Source of the DNA: an uncultured Verrucomicrobia subdivision 3 bacterium
Lineage (GTDB): Bacteria > Verrucomicrobiota > Verrucomicrobiia > Limisphaerales > UBA11358
Assembly (NCBI GenBank): GCA_903872345.1
Contig: CAIQKM010000055.1
Coordinates: 1-64,000, forward strand
Direction: 5' to 3'
DNA length: 64,000 nucleotides
Shown here: positions 39,619 to 46,887 of the stretch, piece after piece
Layout of the letters: the number at the start of each line of letters is the position of its first letter
Position numbering within the stretch: the first letter of the stretch is position 1
Position numbers and translations under genes: made by a program
Notes under the pieces: generated by a model
Databases searched by the model: none
Told to the model about the DNA's origin: nothing
The model's input: only the letters and a program-made list of their open reading frames with translations

Positions 39619-39869
39619 ATATATATGCCTCCAATGGCGAGCGTAGGACGATGTTGCGCCGGGGTCAACCCCGGCCGGTTGGAATACCCCCGCCGCAAAG
39701 CGGCGGGTCTGGGCCGCCGCCGGCATGGGCGGGAACGCCCGTTTCCGCCATGCCGGGGGGCCGGGTTTTGATGAAATCAAAACACCGGCACCGGCGCGAA
39801 TGCGCCAGCGGCGGTGGGGGCGCTGATGGGTCTGCGCTGTCGTCCTGCGCCCAAAAGCCTGCGTGTCAG

Positions 39870-39902
39870 GGCGGCCAGCGGGGGTTCCCTTTAGGGTACG
39901 CG
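39870..39902 (-). repeat. 33-bp leader core, copy 1
   Basis: GGCGGCCAGCGGGGGTTCCC followed by TTTAGGGTACGCG, read on the plus strand. The same 33 bp recurs at 41501-41533 (identical) and at 43580-43612 (one change). Around this copy the flanking leader sequence is only weakly preserved. The centre CCCTTTAGGG is a perfect 10-bp palindrome. Confidence 0.85.
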
Positions 39903-40240
39903 CCCGGTCCCCTGACGAAAGCGGGCTGGCAGGACGATAGAGCCAAGACCGGAAGCGCGCAAAAGACCGTGAACAACACGCCAACGAACGCGCCACTTTC
40001 CCGCCTTGTGGCGTGACAATCCTGAACGCGGAGCGGCAAATCTGAAACGCGCCGGGGAGCGAAGCGGCGGGCGCGAGCGCACGGCATCAAGTCCGGCATG
40101 GGCAAAAAGCCCGCGCAAGGACTTGACCTGCCGCATTGTCGGAACGGTGATTTGTGCGCGAGCGGGGGCCGAATTACCAAGGTGAGGATGTCGTGGACAT
40201 CCGAACGGTAGAATCGGGGGCGCGGGATTGGGCAGACAAA

Positions 40241-40314
40241 AGCCCCCAGCCGTTGGGGCTGGGAGCCGTTGTCACTTTGGCGGGCTTCCGGCTATGCGCC
40301 CGCCCGCCAAATTT
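40241..40314 (-). ncRNA. Two-hairpin 3' element, copy 1 (after the methyltransferase)
   Basis: Read on the minus strand, hairpin 1 pairs TTTGGCGGGC with GCCCGCCAAA (10 of 10 pairs), with an inner GGC-GCATA-GCC stem-loop. A short linker GTGACAACGG follows. Hairpin 2 pairs CCCAGCC with GGCTGGG and is followed by GGCTTTTGT. The first base of hairpin 1 is adjacent to the TAA stop. The second hairpin with its T-run can act as a terminator. The first hairpin, conserved in three copies, is not needed for termination. Homologous copies are at 41851-41920 and 46461-46532. Confidence 0.7.
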
Positions 40315-41106
40315 TTAGTTTCTAACGAGGGTCGCCATGTGTGAAAACAGGGTCTTTCGGGTGGCGGGAAGGTTGCGCACGATGGCAGTTGTCAGGTGGT
40401 GGGGCAGGTTTTCAAAACGTGCCCGGATGGTTTCACAATGGGTGTCGTCCTTTTCAATCAGAAGGCAACGGCGTCGGCATTGCAAGGCCGCAACGCCGGT
40501 GCTGCCTGAACCTGCGAACGGGTCCAGGACAATCCCTTCACGGGGCGCGTATGCCTCGATCAATGGCGTGAGGGCCGACACCGGCTTTTGCGTCGGGTGC
40601 AATTTGTTGCCGGTGTATTTCCACGGCAAAACATCCGGGGGCGGATTTTTCGGGGGCAGGGGATTGCCTTTGGCTAACAAGTAAGCCTGTTCGTGGCGCA
40701 TTTGACTGTGCCGAACGAGCGAGGCGTAACCCTTCACCCAAACGAAATGCCCGATGGGCTGAAAGCCGCATTCCTTCCAAGCGGACAAAAATCGCTCCGC
40801 TTTGCTCCAGCCGTAGAAACTGACGCAATAGGAATTGGGCTTTAACACGCGGAACAACTCGGCGAAGGCGGGAAAGAGCCAGCGCGAATTATCGTCGTTC
40901 TGGATGGTCCTGCCGGTGCGGTCTTTGTAGGCCACAAGATAAGGCGGATCGGTCAAAACAAAGTCCGCGGATTCGGCGCGGAGTTCGCGTAGTTGTTGGA
41001 CGCAATCGCCATGAATGAGGCGGCTGCGCGGGGTGATGGAAACGGCCTGTTCCGGCTGGTGAATTGCCCCCAAAAAGAGGCGGTTATGGCTGGTGTCTGT
41101 GTTCAT
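40315..41106 (-). CDS. DNA methyltransferase (N4-cytosine/N6-adenine, DPPY type)
   Basis: 263 residues. The catalytic motif D53-P-P-Y56 ('FVLTDPPYLVAY') comes first and the AdoMet-binding motif D195-P-F-A-G-S-G ('VLDPFAGSGSTG') comes last, the beta-class order. 'KLHPTQKP' (169-176) is also typical. It methylates an exocyclic amino group of A or C in a specific site; the site is unknown. No restriction partner is adjacent, so it is probably a solitary methylase protecting the element. Its N-terminal 25 residues are a polar leader loosely similar to those of neighbouring proteins. It is 18 bp after the 101-residue membrane protein gene. Confidence 0.93.
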   Translation of the reverse strand: MNTDTSHNRLFLGAIHQPEQAVSITPRSRLIHGDCVQQLRELRAESADFVLTDPPYLVAYKDRTGRTIQNDDNSRWLFPAFAELFRVLKPNSYCVSFYGWSKAERFLSAWKECGFQPIGHFVWVKGYASLVRHSQMRHEQAYLLAKGNPLPPKNPPPDVLPWKYTGNKLHPTQKPVSALTPLIEAYAPREGIVLDPFAGSGSTGVAALQCRRRCLLIEKDDTHCETIRARFENLPHHLTTAIVRNLPATRKTLFSHMATLVRN

Positions 41107-41124
41107 GGTGTCTGTGTCAGAGGG

Positions 41125-41430
41125 TTATGGTTGGCGGGTTTCCAGTTTATAAATCGCCTGTTTGATTTCCGGGCGCACGGTGAACAGTTCGCACCCTATC
41201 CACGAGAGGGCGAATACCAAGAGGATGACGCCCGCCACATAGTTGAACCTTTCCAAGTCAAATAAGGCGAACGGGTCTTGCCAAAGGTCGTAAGACGGGC
41301 TTTTAACTGCGCGGTTTGCTTCTGGTTGCGGCGTGGTGCGGGTGCCGCGTTTGTTGTCTGGAACGGTCTGCTCGGGATGGGCAGTTGTCCCTGACGGGGT
41401 GAGGTGATGACTGTTTTTGTCGTTGTTCAT
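41125..41430 (-). CDS. Small membrane protein with duplicated N-terminus
   Basis: 101 residues from ATG 41430. The first 26 residues (starting MNNDKNSHHLTPSGTTAHPE) are identical to those of the 134-residue protein at 43106-43510, because both genes start inside a duplicated DNA leader. A polar stretch and one membrane helix ('VAGVILLVFALSWIGCELF', about 66-84) follow, then a short cytoplasmic or periplasmic end. No family is recognised. The methyltransferase gene follows after 18 bp and is probably co-transcribed. Confidence 0.75.
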   Translation of the reverse strand: MNNDKNSHHLTPSGTTAHPEQTVPDNKRGTRTTPQPEANRAVKSPSYDLWQDPFALFDLERFNYVAGVILLVFALSWIGCELFTVRPEIKQAIYKLETRQP

Positions 41431-41770
41431 ATTTGTGTTTGCGACTTGATGTCGCTCGGTTTGGTGTAGTCGCCCTTCACGAAATAGGCCCGCGAGCGAT
41501 GGCGGCCAGCGGGGGTTCCCTTTAGGGTACGCGTCGGCCCCGGAGCGAACAGCGGGCCAGTGAGGGCGACGAAGCCACAACCGGAGACATCAGCAAACGG
41601 AAATGTGAGAGACAAAAAGGCAGCGGGTAGCCCGTAGGGAACTGCCCGCAGCGGTCGGTAACTCGGCGCGCAGCGTACTCTTGTTGCGGGGTTGCGCGGA
41701 TAGCGCAAGCTGGAAAAATCAGCGCCGCCCCCTGGGCATGGGAGGGGGCGAGCATCGGGGTGGGCGGGCG
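41351..41770 (-). repeat. Leader duplication, copy A
   Basis: About 420 bp matching 43431-43851 in the same orientation over almost all its length, with one poorly matching stretch near 41685-41705. It covers the 5' flank of the 101-residue gene plus its first 26 codons, then diverges abruptly. It includes the 33-bp core at 41501-41533, located 71 bp before the ATG (70 bp in copy B). It must supply the promoter and ribosome-binding site for this unit; the promoter itself is not evident to me. Confidence 0.92.
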
Positions 41771-41934
41771 ATGCTTGGATTCCAAAGGCCCGTGGCCTTT
41801 GGCGCGGGTCTGGGCCGGCGTGAGGTCCAGCCGGTGGCGGGCAAACCAAAACCCCCAGTTTGCAAGGCTGGGGGCTGTATGGTTTGGCGGGGTCTGCGGC
41901 TATTCGCCTGCCCGCCAAAATTCACGCATGGCGG
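41431..41934. other. Non-coding gap: leader copy A plus two-hairpin element
   Basis: 504 bp. From right to left it holds the two-hairpin element of the upstream operon (41851-41920), a perfect 9-bp hairpin CCAAAGGCC-CGT-GGCCTTTGG (41782-41802), and the non-coding part of leader copy A (to 41431). Reading frames through it are fragments of no recognisable protein, and the corresponding frames in the other leader copy are broken. Confidence 0.65.
41851..41920 (-). ncRNA. Two-hairpin 3' element, copy 2
   Basis: On the minus strand: TTTTGGCGGG pairs with CCCGCCAAA, with an inner GGC-GAATA-GCC stem-loop. After the linker CCATACAG, hairpin 2 pairs CCCCCAG with CTGGGGG and is followed by TTTTGGTTT. 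It begins 15 bp after the TGA of the 225-residue gene. The GAATA loop and the arm sequence match copy 3, while the hairpin 2 stem differs in sequence but keeps pairing. Confidence 0.7.
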
Positions 41935-42612
41935 TCACATGCCGGGCAAACCGAGTTGCGCAATTTCCGACGTGTTCGCATGGCCGGGCAAGGGGCGGGA
42001 CAGTTTCCCAAGCTCGGCCAGCATTTCGGGCTGTGTTTTGGGAAATGAATCCCGCGACAATTCCCGATCAATGGCCGTCTTGAGACCATCCGAATTCCGG
42101 TCATCATTACGGAAATTTACCAGCATTTCCTGATATGTTTTGCCGGAAACGAAATATCCGCCATAGGCGTATTTCCGGCGCAACAGGCTGATTTCCTCAT
42201 CCACCGTGAGCGGGCGGGAGGAAAACGTGACTTTCGGGCCAAGCGTGAACGTTTGCCTGTCGTATATCACGGTTTCACCTTCATACGAATAGGGCTTTTT
42301 GCCGGTTCCCTTGCAATGCTCCGGCAAAAGCAAGGGGTAGCAATGCACGGAATATTCCGTGCCGCCCATGTTGGTGAATCGCTGCCCGTCATGCACGAAC
42401 GTCAATATTTTTGGACGTTTATCGGCGGAATAGGCGGCGGTGATGTCGCCCTCGGTGTCACCCCAAAGATCCCATGCGAGCCGGGACGGTTCGACGATGA
42501 TTTCTTCCGGCCATGCCCGTGTGGCGGTGAAATCTTGGGGCAGGGACAAACACAGGTTGTCAGGCTGCGTTTGTTCTGCGGGGTGATTTTGATGGGTTGG
42601 GTTGGTGTCCAT
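41935..42612 (-). CDS. Hypothetical protein of the duplicated-leader operon
   Basis: 225 residues from ATG 42612 (MDTNPTHQNHPAEQTQPDN); a longer reading to 42687 has no ribosome-binding site and overlaps the preceding gene. The first 20 residues are polar and resemble the leaders of its neighbours. The rest is a soluble alpha/beta protein with no family I recognise. Notable segments are 'LAWDLWGDTEGDITAAYS', 'GTEYSVHCYPLLLPEH' and a helical C-terminus. It is the last of three genes separated by 5-bp gaps (134-, 160- and 225-residue proteins) and is followed by a two-hairpin element. Confidence 0.75.
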   Translation of the reverse strand: MDTNPTHQNHPAEQTQPDNLCLSLPQDFTATRAWPEEIIVEPSRLAWDLWGDTEGDITAAYSADKRPKILTFVHDGQRFTNMGGTEYSVHCYPLLLPEHCKGTGKKPYSYEGETVIYDRQTFTLGPKVTFSSRPLTVDEEISLLRRKYAYGGYFVSGKTYQEMLVNFRNDDRNSDGLKTAIDRELSRDSFPKTQPEMLAELGKLSRPLPGHANTSEIAQLGLPGM

Positions 42613-42617
42613 GATGT

Positions 42618-43100
42618 TTATACCTCCCCCGTTGGCATCATTATGGTTATGGATGGCGATGGGTCGTCCAAGTCCAGCGCACCACAAACCGAAAGCAGGG
42701 AAACCTGCTTGGGGCTGCGGTTGTTATTGCGGACATAAAGCTGGAATGACAGACGATCTTGTCCGGGTCGGGATGCCTTTATGGCACAATGGAGCATGTA
42801 GAGGACATCCCATAGCCGCCCCGCCTCGTCCTGACATTCGACGCCTTCCGGCACCTTGACATAGCTGTTAAAAACGGTATCCGTCATAAAGACTGGAATC
42901 CGAAAGCCCGCTTCCTTGGCGACGGTGGAGACATCCACTTGGCAGCCGTCTGCCAATGCCTGCTTGCGCGTGTAGGCGTATATGACCGGGCCGAAGTCTG
43001 CCGCCCCGGCGGGCGGCGGACTTTGCGGCTGCGGGTTGTTGCCGGAATTTTCGTGCGGATTCTCCGGCGGGGTGGGTTGGTGGTTCTGATTTGTTTTCAT
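42618..43100 (-). CDS. DUF6573-like protein
   Basis: 160 residues. After a 35-residue polar, Pro/Asn-rich start it contains 'VIYAYTRKQALADGCQVDVSTVAKEAGF' and 'PVFMTDTVF', followed by 'GRLWDVLYMLHCAIKAS' and 'LSFQLYVRNNN'. This series is the signature of DUF6573-type proteins, common in plasmids and integrative elements of many phyla and of unknown function. It is the middle gene of a three-gene operon, with 5 bp to each neighbour. No catalytic residues can be named. Confidence 0.82.
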   Translation of the reverse strand: MKTNQNHQPTPPENPHENSGNNPQPQSPPPAGAADFGPVIYAYTRKQALADGCQVDVSTVAKEAGFRIPVFMTDTVFNSYVKVPEGVECQDEAGRLWDVLYMLHCAIKASRPGQDRLSFQLYVRNNNRSPKQVSLLSVCGALDLDDPSPSITIMMPTGEV

Positions 43101-43105
43101 GGCGG

Positions 43106-43510
43106 TTATTGTTGTTCGTTTTCAATTTCGTCATCAAATTCCTCATGCTGGCGAACGAGAATTTCGACCAATCGTTCCTGCGGGGCGGCAACCTCGGTGA
43201 TGATAAATCCGAATATTTGATCAACCCCGACTACATTGTTGGAGATGATTGAGTAGAGGTCATCTTCGCAAACGACAGACCATGTTTGGCTCAAAGGAAA
43301 TGAGCGGATCATTTCCAATTCGACGCCGTCCGGGCGGAACAATGTCCCATGAAAATGTGCGTCGGTGAACGGGTTTTTGATGGGGCGGAATTTCTCGCGC
43401 CATTCTTTGTAAGAGAGGCGCTTCGCCGGGTTGTTGTCTGGAACGGTCTGCTCGGGATGGGCAGTTGTCCCTGACGGGGTGAGGTGATGACTGTTTTTGT
43501 CGTTGTTCAT
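43106..43510 (-). CDS. Hypothetical protein with duplicated N-terminus
   Basis: 134 residues from ATG 43510. The first 26 residues are identical to those of the 101-residue protein at 41125-41430; after 'HPEQTVPDN' the two diverge completely. The remainder is soluble ('SYKEWREKFRPIKNPFTDAHFHGTLFRPDGVELEMI', described here in two parts by its Arg/Phe-rich start and acidic end) and ends in a Glu/Gln-rich helix ('HEEFDDEIENEQQ'). No family is recognised. It is the first gene of the operon with the DUF6573-like and 225-residue genes. Confidence 0.75.
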   Translation of the reverse strand: MNNDKNSHHLTPSGTTAHPEQTVPDNNPAKRLSYKEWREKFRPIKNPFTDAHFHGTLFRPDGVELEMIRSFPLSQTWSVVCEDDLYSIISNNVVGVDQIFGFIITEVAAPQERLVEILVRQHEEFDDEIENEQQ

Positions 43511-43851
43511 ATTTGTGTTTGCGACGGGATGTCGCTCGGTTTGGTGTAGTCGCCCTTCACGAAAAGGCCCGCAAGCGATGGCGGCCAGCGGGGGTTCCCT
43601 CTAGGGTACGCGTCGGCCCCGGAGCGAACAGCGGGCCAGTGAGGGCGACGAAGCCACAACCGGAGACATCAGCAAACGGAAATGAAGGAGACAAAAAGGC
43701 AGGGGCAGCCCGTAGGGAACTGCCCGTAGCGGTCGGTGACTCGACGCGCAGCGTTTCAAAATTGTGTGAGTTTGCGCGGATAGCGCAAGCTGGAAAAATC
43801 AGCGCCGCCCCCTGGGTGTGGGAGGGGGCAAGCATTGGGGGTGGGCGGGTG
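43431..43851 (-). repeat. Leader duplication, copy B
   Basis: The counterpart of 41351-41770. It spans the 5' flank and first 26 codons of the 134-residue gene. The 33-bp core is at 43580-43612 with one substitution relative to the other copies. Small indels relative to copy A lie near 43565 and 43685-43695, and a divergent stretch lies near 43755-43770. The shared region ends at the GGTGGGCGGG just before the pseudopilin gene's terminator-like hairpin. Confidence 0.92.
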
Positions 43852-43925
43852 GGGGACAGGAAAGCCCCGGTTTATGCCGGGGCTTGGCGGGGAAAGGGAG
43901 CGCGACCGTTTCCGGTGGCCCGGTG
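43511..43925. other. Non-coding gap: leader copy B and the pseudopilin 3' region
   Basis: 415 bp made almost entirely of leader copy B (to 43851), followed by the hairpin at 43862-43885 and 40 bp before the pseudopilin stop. No gene is supported in it. Confidence 0.65.
43862..43885 (-). terminator. Terminator-like hairpin after the pseudopilin gene
   Basis: AAGCCCCGG (43862-43870) and CCGGGGCTT (43877-43885) pair perfectly with a 6-nt loop. On the minus strand the stem is followed only by TCC, so the U-tract is weak. It lies 41 bp past the stop. The TTGGCGGGG next to it (43884-43892) resembles half of hairpin 1 of the two-hairpin motif and may be a decayed copy. Confidence 0.55.
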
Positions 43926-45302
43926 TCAGTTACCCGGATTGTTGTTGCTGTCGGCGGTGTTGGTGTCCGTAAAGATGTAATCGGAGCCGGACTGCGCGCC
44001 GGAGAGGTTGTCTGCGGAATAATCCCCGCTGACACTGATTGAGGCGACATTCTCCTGGGTTGGGTCGGGGGTGAGGGTGAACGACTGGCCGGGAGCCAGA
44101 GTATCGTTGCCCGGAGTCACCGGGGGATTGAGTGCCACGGCAGCGGCGGTCACCACTGCCGGCGGCGCGACATACGGCTGGCCATAGTTGTTATTGATGT
44201 CCGCCGGATTGGTTACCGTGGCGATGACGGTCAGAGCCTCCGTCGTATTGCCGCCCCAAGCCCCGGCGTCCAGCGTGGCTTCCAGCGGAACGGTCAGCAA
44301 CAGACCCGACAGCGAACCGCCGGAGGGGTTTTTCAATCCGGTCACGCTGCCGTCAAAACCGTCACTGCCGAGACTGGCCGCCATGGTCAACGCCGTGCTG
44401 CCACCGGAGTTTCCGCCGAAGGTGGCGGTCAGGGCAATGTCCCCGGACTGAAGGTCGGTGAGATTGTTCCGGTAGGCGAAGACATACACCTTGCCGTAGG
44501 TCGCGGAAGTGTAATCCGCGAAGGTGAATGCTCCCGGCGCGGCATGGTCGGGAGCGGTCAGATTGCCGTAGGCAATGGCAAAGGTGATGCCGGGCAGACT
44601 GACCGGCGCGGGAGCCGACGCCGGGGCCGACGCCGGGCCGGGGATGATGCTGGTGTCTTCATCCCACAGATAACTGTTCTTGCTGGCATACTTGCTGCCG
44701 GTAAGGTTGGAAAAGGCGGCTCCCGAAGTGGCTCCGGCCCCGGTGCCGGAGAGCACCTGCGCCTGATTGATGACCATGGCGCGGGAGGCCAGTTGATTGA
44801 ACTGGCCGCCCTCGTTGGAACCGCCATTGACGGCGATGAAACCGGGCGCCGCCTCTTCCGGCGTGGCCGGGGTCACGACGGCCGGCACGCCGCTCACGCT
44901 GAAAACAATTCTCGGTTTGCCGTTGTAAGCGGCATTGGGCGGCGATCCGTAGTTGGTGTAATCGGCGTAACCATACGGCACAATGACCTCCGTTGCCGGC
45001 AGCGGATTGCCCACGGTGCCTTTCTGCGTTTCCGAGGCGCTGTTTAACCGCCCCTGCAACAGTTGGGTCAGGGCCAGGGCCTTGATGTAGGATGGTGCGC
45101 CGGCGTTCAGGATGGCCAGTAGGTTGCCGCCGCTCATGTGCAGTTCGCTCAACACCTGGTTGAGTTCGGCCTGGTTCTTTTGTTGCGCCACCGCCGTGGC
45201 GCTGTTTTGGATGCCGTTATAGACATTGAGGACGACCGCTACAATGATGCCGACCACGGTCAGCGTGACCAACATTTCCGACAGGGAAAACGCCTTTTTC
45301 AT
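43926..45302 (-). CDS. Type IV pilin/pseudopilin-like protein with large C-terminal part
   Basis: 458 residues. The N-terminus MKKAFSLSEMLVTLTVVGII is a prepilin signal: short basic leader, then F/S-L-S-E-M-L-V-T-L, with the Glu five residues into the mature helix as in type IV pilins and pseudopilins. A long hydrophobic helix follows. The rest is a beta-rich, Ala/Gly/Thr-rich domain, with a segment 'DTLAPGQSFTLTPDP' near the end. It is much longer than major pilins (about 150 residues). No pilus assembly genes are nearby, so it must use a chromosomal system. The PEP-CTERM gene starts divergently about 150 bp away. Confidence 0.85.
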   Translation of the reverse strand: MKKAFSLSEMLVTLTVVGIIVAVVLNVYNGIQNSATAVAQQKNQAELNQVLSELHMSGGNLLAILNAGAPSYIKALALTQLLQGRLNSASETQKGTVGNPLPATEVIVPYGYADYTNYGSPPNAAYNGKPRIVFSVSGVPAVVTPATPEEAAPGFIAVNGGSNEGGQFNQLASRAMVINQAQVLSGTGAGATSGAAFSNLTGSKYASKNSYLWDEDTSIIPGPASAPASAPAPVSLPGITFAIAYGNLTAPDHAAPGAFTFADYTSATYGKVYVFAYRNNLTDLQSGDIALTATFGGNSGGSTALTMAASLGSDGFDGSVTGLKNPSGGSLSGLLLTVPLEATLDAGAWGGNTTEALTVIATVTNPADINNNYGQPYVAPPAVVTAAAVALNPPVTPGNDTLAPGQSFTLTPDPTQENVASISVSGDYSADNLSGAQSGSDYIFTDTNTADSNNNPGN

Positions 45303-45454
45303 ATTTTGCCCCTACGGCCAATCCGGCGGCAATCTTTAGAGTTTCCGGGATTGTAAAAAACGGCATTCATCCATCTGGATAATAACAACTTGGTATTAAG
45401 CGGCCTGAATGGTGTTGACCCGGCGGGGCAAACCGTTTGAAGATCATCTGTCGT

Positions 45455-46147
45455 ATGAGGAAATTATCCCCCCGTTTGGCCGGATTGGCCGCCGGTGTGC
45501 TCGTGGCGGGCGCCGGTCTGCAACCCGTCGCGACGAAAGCCCAGGGCTGGGTTGACGTCCGGTTCAGCGGCACGGTCAATCAACTGTTCGGCAACGGCAG
45601 CGGCGTCACCAACGGTTCGGCCGTCAGCGGTCATGTGCTGCTGAATCCCTATGCGGCCCTGCTGCTGGCCGGGAACGGTTCGACCACTGCCGCCTCGGAA
45701 TATGGCCTGGCCGATGCCGTGGTGAGCGTCACCATCAACGGGAACACCACCAATCTGACGGGCGTCATGGCGGCGGTGGCTGACAACGTGACGGATTTGA
45801 GCGGGCGGAACCTGCCCGCTGACAGTCTGCTGCTGTCTTGGGGTGTGGACAATCTGGACGGGCTGGTGATCTATTATCCCGGCGGCACCATCACCAACAG
45901 TTCATCCGCCAGTCTGGCGGCTTTGATTGACAGCGGCCTGCGCGGCTGTCTGCCTTATCCAAACGACGCCACGTTTGCCGCCGCCTCGGACGCCAGTTTT
46001 AACGGTGTTCAAGGCGGCTTGCTCACCTATTCGGCGCAGGCCGCCCCCGAGCCGTCGGCTTGGGGGTTGGGCGTGCTGGGTGCGGCGGGTTGGGCCGGTC
46101 TGCGCCGGTTCCGCCGCCCGGTGGCGACCGGCCCGGTTCTCCGTTAG
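45455..46147 (+). CDS. PEP-CTERM sorting-domain protein
   Basis: 230 residues from ATG 45455 (MRKLSPRLAGLAAGVLVAGA, signal peptide); 45437 is an alternative start six codons earlier. The body is beta-rich with a possible single domain. The C-terminus is a PEP-CTERM signal: 'APEPSAWGLGVLGAAGWAGLRRFRR', with the P-E-P motif, a membrane helix and an Arg-rich end. Such proteins are processed by exosortase and kept at or exported through the envelope. The exosortase must be elsewhere. The gene lies inside the mobile element and is divergent from the pseudopilin gene. Confidence 0.87.
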   Translation: MRKLSPRLAGLAAGVLVAGAGLQPVATKAQGWVDVRFSGTVNQLFGNGSGVTNGSAVSGHVLLNPYAALLLAGNGSTTAASEYGLADAVVSVTINGNTTNLTGVMAAVADNVTDLSGRNLPADSLLLSWGVDNLDGLVIYYPGGTITNSSSASLAALIDSGLRGCLPYPNDATFAAASDASFNGVQGGLLTYSAQAAPEPSAWGLGVLGAAGWAGLRRFRRPVATGPVLR

Positions 46148-46386
46148 GGAAGCCGGGTAACGGATTTGATTTTGAAAAGGTGCGGAGCCAAGGGCGGGGT
46201 GCTGGCCTGTTTCAGCCGGACGGCCATGCGGGCCGCCTCGGCATCGGAGCGGGCGCGGAGGATGGTGCAACCCTGCGTCTGATAGGTGAAGCGAAACAGG
46301 TAATTGCCGAAGGGAGCGGCCCGGTGAACGTGGCGGCGGCGCGTCGTTCGCCGGACGTGGCGGGTGGATTTGTGGTTGGTTTTCAT
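46144..46386 (-). CDS. Small basic hypothetical protein
   Basis: 80 residues. The first 25 are strongly basic ('MKTNHKSTRHVRRTTRRRHV'). The rest has 'NYLFRFTYQTQGCTILRARSDAEAARMAVRLKQ', a strand-strand-helix pattern reminiscent of small alpha/beta sandwich proteins. Its last 4 bp overlap the end of the PEP-CTERM gene tail to tail. The ribosome-binding site is poor. Similar codon use to neighbours and the ordered second half make it plausible, but it could be a chance reading frame. Confidence 0.5.
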   Translation of the reverse strand: MKTNHKSTRHVRRTTRRRHVHRAAPFGNYLFRFTYQTQGCTILRARSDAEAARMAVRLKQASTPPLAPHLFKIKSVTRLP

Positions 46387-46460
46387 GGTGAGGAAAGCAG
46401 CCCGTGTTACGACCGTAAACGGGGGCCGTGGGGGAGGTCAACGGCGGATTAGCAACACCA

Positions 46461-46532
46461 ACCCCCCGGCCTTGAAGGCCGGGGGCCGTTGTCGTTTGGC
46501 GGGCTGGGGAGCTATTCGCTCACCCGTCAAAA
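46461..46532 (-). ncRNA. Two-hairpin 3' element, copy 3
   Basis: On the minus strand: TTTGACGGGT pairs with GCCCGCCAAA (one A-C mismatch, one T-G pair), with an inner GAGC-GAATA-GCTC stem-loop. After CGACAACGG, hairpin 2 pairs CCCCCGGCC with GGCCGGGGG around TTCAA and is followed by GTTGGTGTT. It lies 66 bp after the stop of the XRE regulator gene. The inner stem's AGC/GCT in place of GGC/GCC is a compensatory change relative to copies 1 and 2. Confidence 0.68.
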
Positions 46533-46599
46533 AAGTTCAACTTTGGGCGGGCGGTTCCTCGAACGTGGTGCCAAGGATGTAATCGGCGGATTTCTGTGG

Positions 46600-46887
46600 C
46601 TAACCGGACGGCTTGCGTTTGCGGGCGAGCGACAGTTTGATTTTATCCTGCCACGCCTTGTCCGGTTCCGGCAATCCGTCAAACAGACGGTTTGGGCTGA
46701 CGCCCAAAGCCTGGCTGATTTTGAAGAAGGTGATTACCGAGCAGAGATACTTGCCGTTTTCAATATAGCTGACGGTTTGCCAGTGGACTCCCGCCAGTTC
46801 GGCCACGCATTCCTGCGTCAGATTGGCATTGAGCCGGGCGGTTTTCACCGACTGGCCGATGCGTTTCAACATTTGGCGGTCTGTCAT
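46600..46887 (-). CDS. XRE/Cro-C1-type transcriptional regulator
   Basis: 95 residues. A single HTH_3 domain (about 8-63): 'IGQSVKTARLNANLTQECVAELAGVHWQTVSYIENGKYL'. The Q-x4-A...V-x-x-Q-T-V-S-Y-I-E-N-G pattern is textbook for the Xre family. The C-terminus is basic (KIKLSLARKRKPSG) and may be flexible. It is divergent from the large secreted repeat protein at 47010, with 122 bp between the starts, so it may regulate that gene or itself. A two-hairpin element lies 66 bp downstream. Confidence 0.9.
   Translation of the reverse strand: MTDRQMLKRIGQSVKTARLNANLTQECVAELAGVHWQTVSYIENGKYLCSVITFFKISQALGVSPNRLFDGLPEPDKAWQDKIKLSLARKRKPSG

Follow-up and report, generated by a model that had tools for sequence, protein, structure and literature searches.

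What lies at the ends of three gene units of a mobile element in an uncultured Verrucomicrobia subdivision 3 bacterium (Limisphaerales, UBA11358), and what is the first of its two hairpins for? The window analyzed here comprises the first 64,000 nt (forward strand) of contig CAIQKM010000055.1 (assembly GCA_903872345.1), a contig of 109 kb referred to below as C55. Three modules of about 75 nt lie on its minus strand at 40312-40238, 41920-41847 and 46532-46458 (copies 1, 2 and 3), each directly 3' of a gene in the same orientation, with 2, 14 and 67 nt, respectively, between the stop codon and the aligned start of the module. A first-pass annotation made from the sequence alone had located and folded the three copies as found here, although its distances of 0, 15 and 66 nt needed adjustment. 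The module probably serves a MobF conjugative element as a dispersed unit-end terminator, to which an accessory 3' hairpin is joined; this claim is kept modest because there are three copies in one genome.

A repeated two-hairpin module

In all three copies, hairpin 1 comes first and is joined by a short linker to hairpin 2, which is GC-rich. The outer stem of hairpin 1 has ten pairs, TTTGRCGGG paired with CCCGCCAAA, and encloses an asymmetric internal loop, a three-pair inner stem and a GMATA loop. Copy 1 has hairpin 1 at 40276..40311 with the loop GCATA and a terminator-like hairpin 2 at 40241..40267 with the tail TTTTGTC. In copy 2, hairpin 1 is at 41883..41919 with the loop GAATA and hairpin 2 at 41852..41874 with the tail TTTTGG. 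Copy 3 has hairpin 1 at 46495..46531, also with the loop GAATA, and hairpin 2 at 46463..46485 with the poor tail GTTGGTGTT; its inner stem is AGC/GCT in place of GGC/GCC, a change that the annotation had read correctly and that the pair analysis also covers. Each hairpin 1 was recovered by fold and by pattern match in the own genome, and each hairpin 2 by fold. The whole-element model R1, built from these three sequences (a second model, R2, describes hairpin 1), scores its own members at 82.4, 75.2 and 80.6 bits.

The positions left unpaired within stems are an A.C in the outer stem of copy 3, a C.C in the outer stem of copy 2 and a C.A in hairpin 2 of copy 2. Apart from this C.A, hairpin 2 folds in the copies as the annotation had described. 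Minimum free energy (MFE) z-scores of copies 1 to 3 are -5.5, -3.6 and -3.8 on the minus strand and -5.0, -2.6 and -4.0 on the plus strand; folding is better than in shuffled sequences on both strands, as is usual for inverted repeats. G-U pairs on the minus strand number 1, 0 and 1 in copies 1, 2 and 3, and A-C pairs, equivalent to G-U on the plus strand, 0, 1 and 1. The wobble pairs leave the RNA strand undecided, and the orientation of the genes favors the minus strand.

Pairwise local alignments between the copies score 54, 55 and 51, with best scores of 31, 29 and 27 in 1000 dinucleotide shuffles per pair (0/1000 reach the observed score for each pair) and of 24, 26 and 27 among 1704 other 150-nt windows per copy. 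The 300-nt flanks have no comparable similarity, the lowest of six comparisons being those downstream of copies 2 and 3 (8/200 shuffles) and upstream of copies 1 and 2 (24/200). The similarity is thus confined to the module, and a discrete unit has been copied or moved, which agrees with the annotation's claim of a discrete structured element 3' of mobile-element genes. A control with the pattern of the 5' half alone, allowing two mismatches or fewer, was non-discriminating (14 sites in the window vs. 10.75 expected).

Hairpin 2 and transcription termination

The best reading of hairpin 2 is that of an intrinsic terminator, and the annotation had already considered it capable of this role. It is GC-rich, with 7-11 pairs, and is followed by a T-rich tail in copies 1 and 2, copy 2 having the combination by sequence (GGGGGTTTTGG), while the tail of copy 3 is weak. 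The terminator scan lists hairpin 2 of copies 1 and 3; among the 26 terminator-like stems of the 36-50.4 kb region, these have the most G-C pairs (8 in copy 1 and 9 in copy 3), the number of stems itself not being a clear excess over shuffles (20.0, sd 4.7). Additionally, the R1 matches in other genomes of a phylum sample rest mainly on the linker and hairpin 2 with T-rich tails (best 10 of 25 alignments), which suggests that this half is a generic terminator.

In the preferred reading, hairpin 2 and its flanking A/T-rich arms would end transcription, separating the gene unit, presumably transcribed, from what follows. Hairpin 1, whose stem of some 13 pairs ends in a GNR(U)A pentaloop, would lie in the 3' untranslated region (UTR) and would most probably block 3'-to-5' decay of the transcript or back up termination. 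It is read as accessory, most simply as a decay block, because it is not required for ending a unit: contig C45 of this genome has a homologue of the 225-aa gene upstream of copy 2 (48% identity over residues 75-224, two thirds of the length), and behind it stands a simple hairpin-plus-T terminator. A plain hairpin (43862-43885) also follows the pilin-like gene (43926-45302). In favor of this terminator with an accessory hairpin are the position of the three copies, all 2-67 nt after stop codons in gene orientation, and base pairs that vary less than other positions. Several observations count against it: the terminator scan misses hairpin 2 of copy 2, the T tract of copy 3 is poor, the two plain hairpins just described occur without hairpin 1, and a stabilizing role does not need a conserved loop or outer-stem sequence. 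The module is a rare, well-delimited sequence family, novel as far as searched, with a probably ordinary main function.

Variation, pairing and covariation

The claim that hairpin 1 is under constraint found partial support. Variable columns make up 10/44 of paired positions, 21/28 of unpaired positions outside the loop and 1/5 of loop positions (Fisher p of 2e-5 for paired vs. unpaired outside the loop, and 0.03 for the loop vs. other unpaired positions), in an alignment registered manually and with knowledge of the structure, a procedure that favors the contrast between paired and unpaired columns. The description of the element as covarying was overstated. Two-sided changes affect 2/22 pairs (13-23 and 54-67 of alignment A4), a number matched by 46/500 column shuffles, and partners slid by 1-3 columns gave zero two-sided changes; with three sequences, covariation is not establishable.

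These counts bear on a simpler history, in which an ordinary terminator, hairpin 2, is accompanied by a passenger, hairpin 1, that was once useful, was copied by recombination and is now functionless. Three own-genome copies, all on C55, and two-sided changes in just 2 of the 22 pairs would fit such a history, but the distribution of variable columns, for all its hand-set register, is unlike passive decay, and we regard a functionless hairpin 1 as unlikely.

The loop of hairpin 1

By sequence alone, the loop follows G-N-R-(N)-A closed by C-G in the three copies (GCATA, GAATA and GAATA), and C-GNAUA-G would fit a GNRA-like pentaloop with the fourth base (U) looped out. In a pentaloop survey, the C-GAGUA-G loop of a Cas6-bound CRISPR RNA (crRNA; PDB 6LNB) has its U looped out and contacting Cas6, and the P22 boxB loop contacts the N peptide (PMC12550061). 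Hairpin 1 shares a loop type with boxB and the 6LNB crRNA, which is a likeness and not membership.

Since the loop and the outer-stem sequence are fixed, a binder is conceivable, and hairpin 1 might instead be a boxB-like RNA handle upstream of the terminator, through which a protein of the element or the host would modulate termination or decay. The loop C-G[A/C]AUA-G belongs by its sequence with pentaloops whose looped-out base is contacted by protein in the survey (PMC12550061). Downstream of copy 3, at a distance of 71 nt, is a frame of 80 aa whose N-terminus is rich in arginine (46144-46386, minus strand); Pfam, NCBIfam and PADLOC gave no family match for it. However, no partner was identified; the 80-aa frame has weak matches only (E 0.0015-0.005), in 3/195 other genomes, where visual inspection suggests that the frames are unrelated. 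Similarly, a FinP-like terminator RNA would call for a FinO/ProQ protein in the cell, and the own genome, which is 94.6% complete, has 0 matches to the FinO/ProQ domain PF04352. A protein-binding hairpin 1 is thus a doubtful alternative to the terminator with an accessory hairpin.

Search for relatives

The module matches no Rfam class, in line with the annotation, which had not recognized it as a known one: over the window, 0/4227 families of Rfam release 15 reached the gathering threshold, and permissive searches gave 6 and 8 sub-threshold matches over 40150-42050 and 46400-46600, well under gathering scores. The many homologues that had been expected did not appear, and no convincing relative was recovered outside this element in searches of the own genome, the order, the phylum, 84,980 species genomes, plasmids, phages and viral contigs. 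The patterns used fix the outer-stem sequence, and relatives with changed stems would escape them; filters were stricter wherever more than 40 genomes were searched, and the R2 search scored 21 candidates per genome. No such module was described in the literature judged by titles and abstract openings, which is not proof of absence from print.

In the own genome (a 6.5-Mb assembly), the exact hairpin-1 pattern has 3 sites, all on C55, and R1 at E<=10 gives 10 matches, the three copies and seven weak ones. The weak match on C152 rests on the terminator half, two on C144 are parts of a dispersed repeat, and three come from the region of the copies itself, as parts of it or on the other strand; the seventh, on C200, was re-scored. 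The two copies of the C144 repeat (ctcgccctcatcccggcc...gagagggttgggtgagggagag, near 1420-1590) face opposite ways and are separated by about 15 kb.

Among 59 relatives, the own genome included, the own genome alone matches the exact pattern. In the order, R1 at E<=0.01 found 2/320 genomes, the own and one other, whose match has no GNATA loop and is preceded by a frame that we take to be PEP-CTERM-like. The phylum sample gave 8/387 genomes at E<=0.05, own included, and no convincing non-own copy among the 387 genomes with R1; 13 of the 14 non-own loci were re-searched. With R2, 57/313 genomes of the order matched at E<=0.5, own included. Nineteen of the 70 non-own matches were inspected (14 fetched loci, best 10 of 20 alignments, and five in one genome, G076), and no hairpin 2 was seen by eye behind any of the 19. 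Each of the 14 fetched loci falls, in one reading frame or another, within a stop-free stretch of 84 codons or more, which is weak evidence in GC-rich DNA; the best match (33 bits, genome G019) has a good outer stem and a different loop.

The exact pattern found 8 loci in the 84,980 species genomes vs. about 7 estimated by chance, none with hairpin 2 by eye; one is inside a 382-codon frame, and another lies between two frames that resemble those of ribosomal L7/L12 and of RNA polymerase beta. In distant blastn searches, copies 3 and 1 had partial matches in 14 and 4 plasmid records and copy 2 in 103 phage records (best 20), the best plasmid match, to Roseomonas plasmids (E 6e-4), spanning the linker and hairpin 2. 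The module was not seen, by eye or with R1, at the 3' ends of relatives of the 225-aa gene (9 loci fetched of 13 listed outside the window). This gene has no relatives in plasmids, and neither it nor the methyltransferase gene upstream of copy 1 has any in viral contigs.

Two findings weigh against a clean negative. Viral contigs gave 0 matches to the strict pattern and 22 to a looser one, and two near-identical contigs (L073 and L085, R1 E 0.079) hold the nearest look-alike of the module, in which a weak GCAUA-loop hairpin over a stop codon is directly followed by a strong terminator hairpin (1105-1200 in L085). They may be related but are not counted as relatives because the core was pattern-selected, the outer stem is different and the score is poor. 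The other is a dispersed palindromic repeat in G076, with 5 R2 matches (L110-L114) and the core TGTTGGCGGG...CCCGCCAAC; genome G144 has a similar one (1230-1268 of locus L100). In its complete form, AGAGATGACATGAGTTGTTGGCGGG...CCCGCCAACAACTCATGTCATCTCT, a much longer inverted repeat surrounds the core. The outer stem TTGGCGGG/CCCGCCAA is common to this repeat and hairpin 1, while the loop differs and hairpin 2 was not seen by eye; kinship is unproven because the model selected for the outer stem.

This repeat would suit an origin of the module as a repetitive extragenic palindrome (REP) or a small non-autonomous hairpin transposon, moved for example by a Y1 (HUH) transposase, as would the unrelated flanks of the copies and the presence of 5 Y1_Tnp matches in the own genome (4 over cut-off). 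REP families usually have many copies, but here there are three in 6.5 Mb, none of the Y1_Tnp matches is on C55, and the G076/G144 repeat departs from the module in the features just given, all of which makes a mobile palindrome quite doubtful. As far as searched, two of the outcomes that the annotation had named as refuting its proposal, no further homologues and no supported covariation, were obtained; the element itself is clearly not a product of chance.

Genes around the copies

The first part of C55 has chromosome-type genes, such as a 2-oxoacid dehydrogenase acyltransferase. Further along, it encodes a TraG/D-type coupling protein, a TrwC/MobF relaxase, a ParA-type ATPase and an SNF2/helicase protein, as well as a Rep3-type initiator scoring at its cut-off. 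Because of these conjugation and replication genes, the copies are placed in an integrated or co-assembled conjugative element (MobF).

The three genes just before the copies are on the minus strand. Upstream of copy 1 is a DNA methyltransferase gene (40315..41106; Pfam N6_N4_Mtase; NCBIfam PRK13699, 263 bits with a cut-off of 244), which has matches in at least 5000 plasmid records, 47 among the matches listed spanning at least 80% of the query. Copy 2 follows the 225-aa gene (41935..42612), which has no assigned function and has relatives in 8/313 genomes of the order, own included; a DUF6573 protein (42618-43100, minus strand) is encoded in the same unit. Copy 3 follows a gene for a helix-turn-helix (HTH) regulator (46600..46887; Pfam HTH_3). 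The pilin-like frame mentioned above, also on the minus strand of the mobile element, has a prepilin-type N-terminal methylation motif just below the Pfam cut-off.

Some gene units are preceded by leader repeats on the minus strand, which as single-stranded DNA (ssDNA) form long imperfect hairpins. The first (41351..41768) starts 78 nt downstream of copy 2, extends into the next gene and is 93% identical to the second (43431..43849), which precedes the unit ending in copy 2; the ssDNA fold z-scores are -4.2 (41436-41600) and -3.0 (43516-43680), respectively. A part-copy downstream of copy 1 (39857..39953; 78% over 100 nt) lies in a region with a fold z-score of -1.8 (39790-40010; 11/200 shuffles as low). 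The promoter scan found no sigma-70-like site on the minus strand at the leader repeats. A same-genus contig with a relative of the 225-aa gene (L056, 15373-19706) has repeats of 220 and 300 nt, spaced 1.7-3.6 kb, which are reminiscent of these leaders and have no similarity to them by blastn.

Methyltransferases are among the genes enriched in plasmid leading regions, where hairpin-forming single-stranded promoters occur, according to one study (PMC11541004), and a conjugation-linked methyltransferase lies behind such a promoter according to another (PMC7736820). By this analogy, the leader repeats are candidate Frpo/ssi-like single-stranded promoters, and the surroundings of the copies may be a plasmid-type leading region. 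A bolder reading would make hairpin 1 the first RNA handle of the entry genes of a conjugative element, a GNR(U)A hairpin plus terminator on several units, bound by an element or host protein that acts as antiterminator or decay blocker or is a Cas6-type target, with joint expression or protection of the early genes just after transfer as the result; we consider this very doubtful.

An RNA anti-CRISPR would be a further possibility, with hairpin 1 as a solitary mimic of a CRISPR repeat that titrates a Cas6-type protein during entry. Its pentaloop class and closing C-G are those of the crRNA loop in PDB 6LNB, such mimics occur on viruses and plasmids (PMC10651486), and the element has a plasmid-type methyltransferase, a class listed as enriched in leading regions (PMC11541004). 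The published screen for solitary repeats requires that a known CRISPR repeat be matched at 90% identity or more (PMC10651486). Against such mimicry, the Rfam CRISPR-DR families had no match to the module, the type I-F endonuclease Csy4 was found in 0/97 relatives (this CRISPR type alone being covered), no array-like set of R2 matches was found in 313 genomes (the five in G076 are not an array), and the ten-pair outer stem is, in our judgment, not repeat-like, making it highly improbable. The earlier suggestion that the copies mark cassette ends, in the sense of integron attC recombination sites, is most improbable: one structured site follows each of three gene units, but the simple-site consensus motifs RYYYAAC and GTTRRRY do not occur together on one strand within 80 nt of either side of any of the three copies.

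Comparison with known systems

On present evidence, the three copies represent a well-delimited but rare terminator module. The repeated hairpin leaders in its surroundings may in addition mark a plasmid-type leading region. If hairpin 1 exceeds the needs of a terminator, it would be a reusable RNA part attached to several units of a conjugative element and, if true, would offer a way of asking how entering DNA coordinates its transcript ends.

The likeness to Frpo/ssi promoters (PMC11541004) is one of setting alone, in that the methyltransferase gene belongs to a unit preceded by a hairpin-forming leader; the module differs in lying at the 3' ends of units and is, in our judgment, short for a promoter duplex. 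With solitary repeat units and RNA anti-CRISPRs (PMC10651486), it shares the occurrence of single structured RNA-like units on a mobile element, whereas neither a CRISPR-DR match nor, in 97 relatives, Csy4 was found. The boxB and 6LNB pentaloops have the same G-N-R-U-A closed by C-G (C50 G51 A52 G53 U54 A55 G56 in 6LNB; PMC12550061); however, the inner stem of hairpin 1 has three pairs and rests on an asymmetric internal loop, below which the outer stem has ten pairs. Like REP and other extragenic palindromes, including 3' hairpins that stabilize mRNA, the module is a repeated imperfect hairpin at 3' intergenic sites, but it occurs as three copies in one mobile element and is fused to a terminator-like hairpin. 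With Rho-independent terminators it shares a GC-rich hairpin of 7-11 pairs 3' of a gene, with a T-rich tail in copies 1 and 2, and differs from them in the poor T tract of copy 3 and in the conserved hairpin that it places before the terminator-like one.

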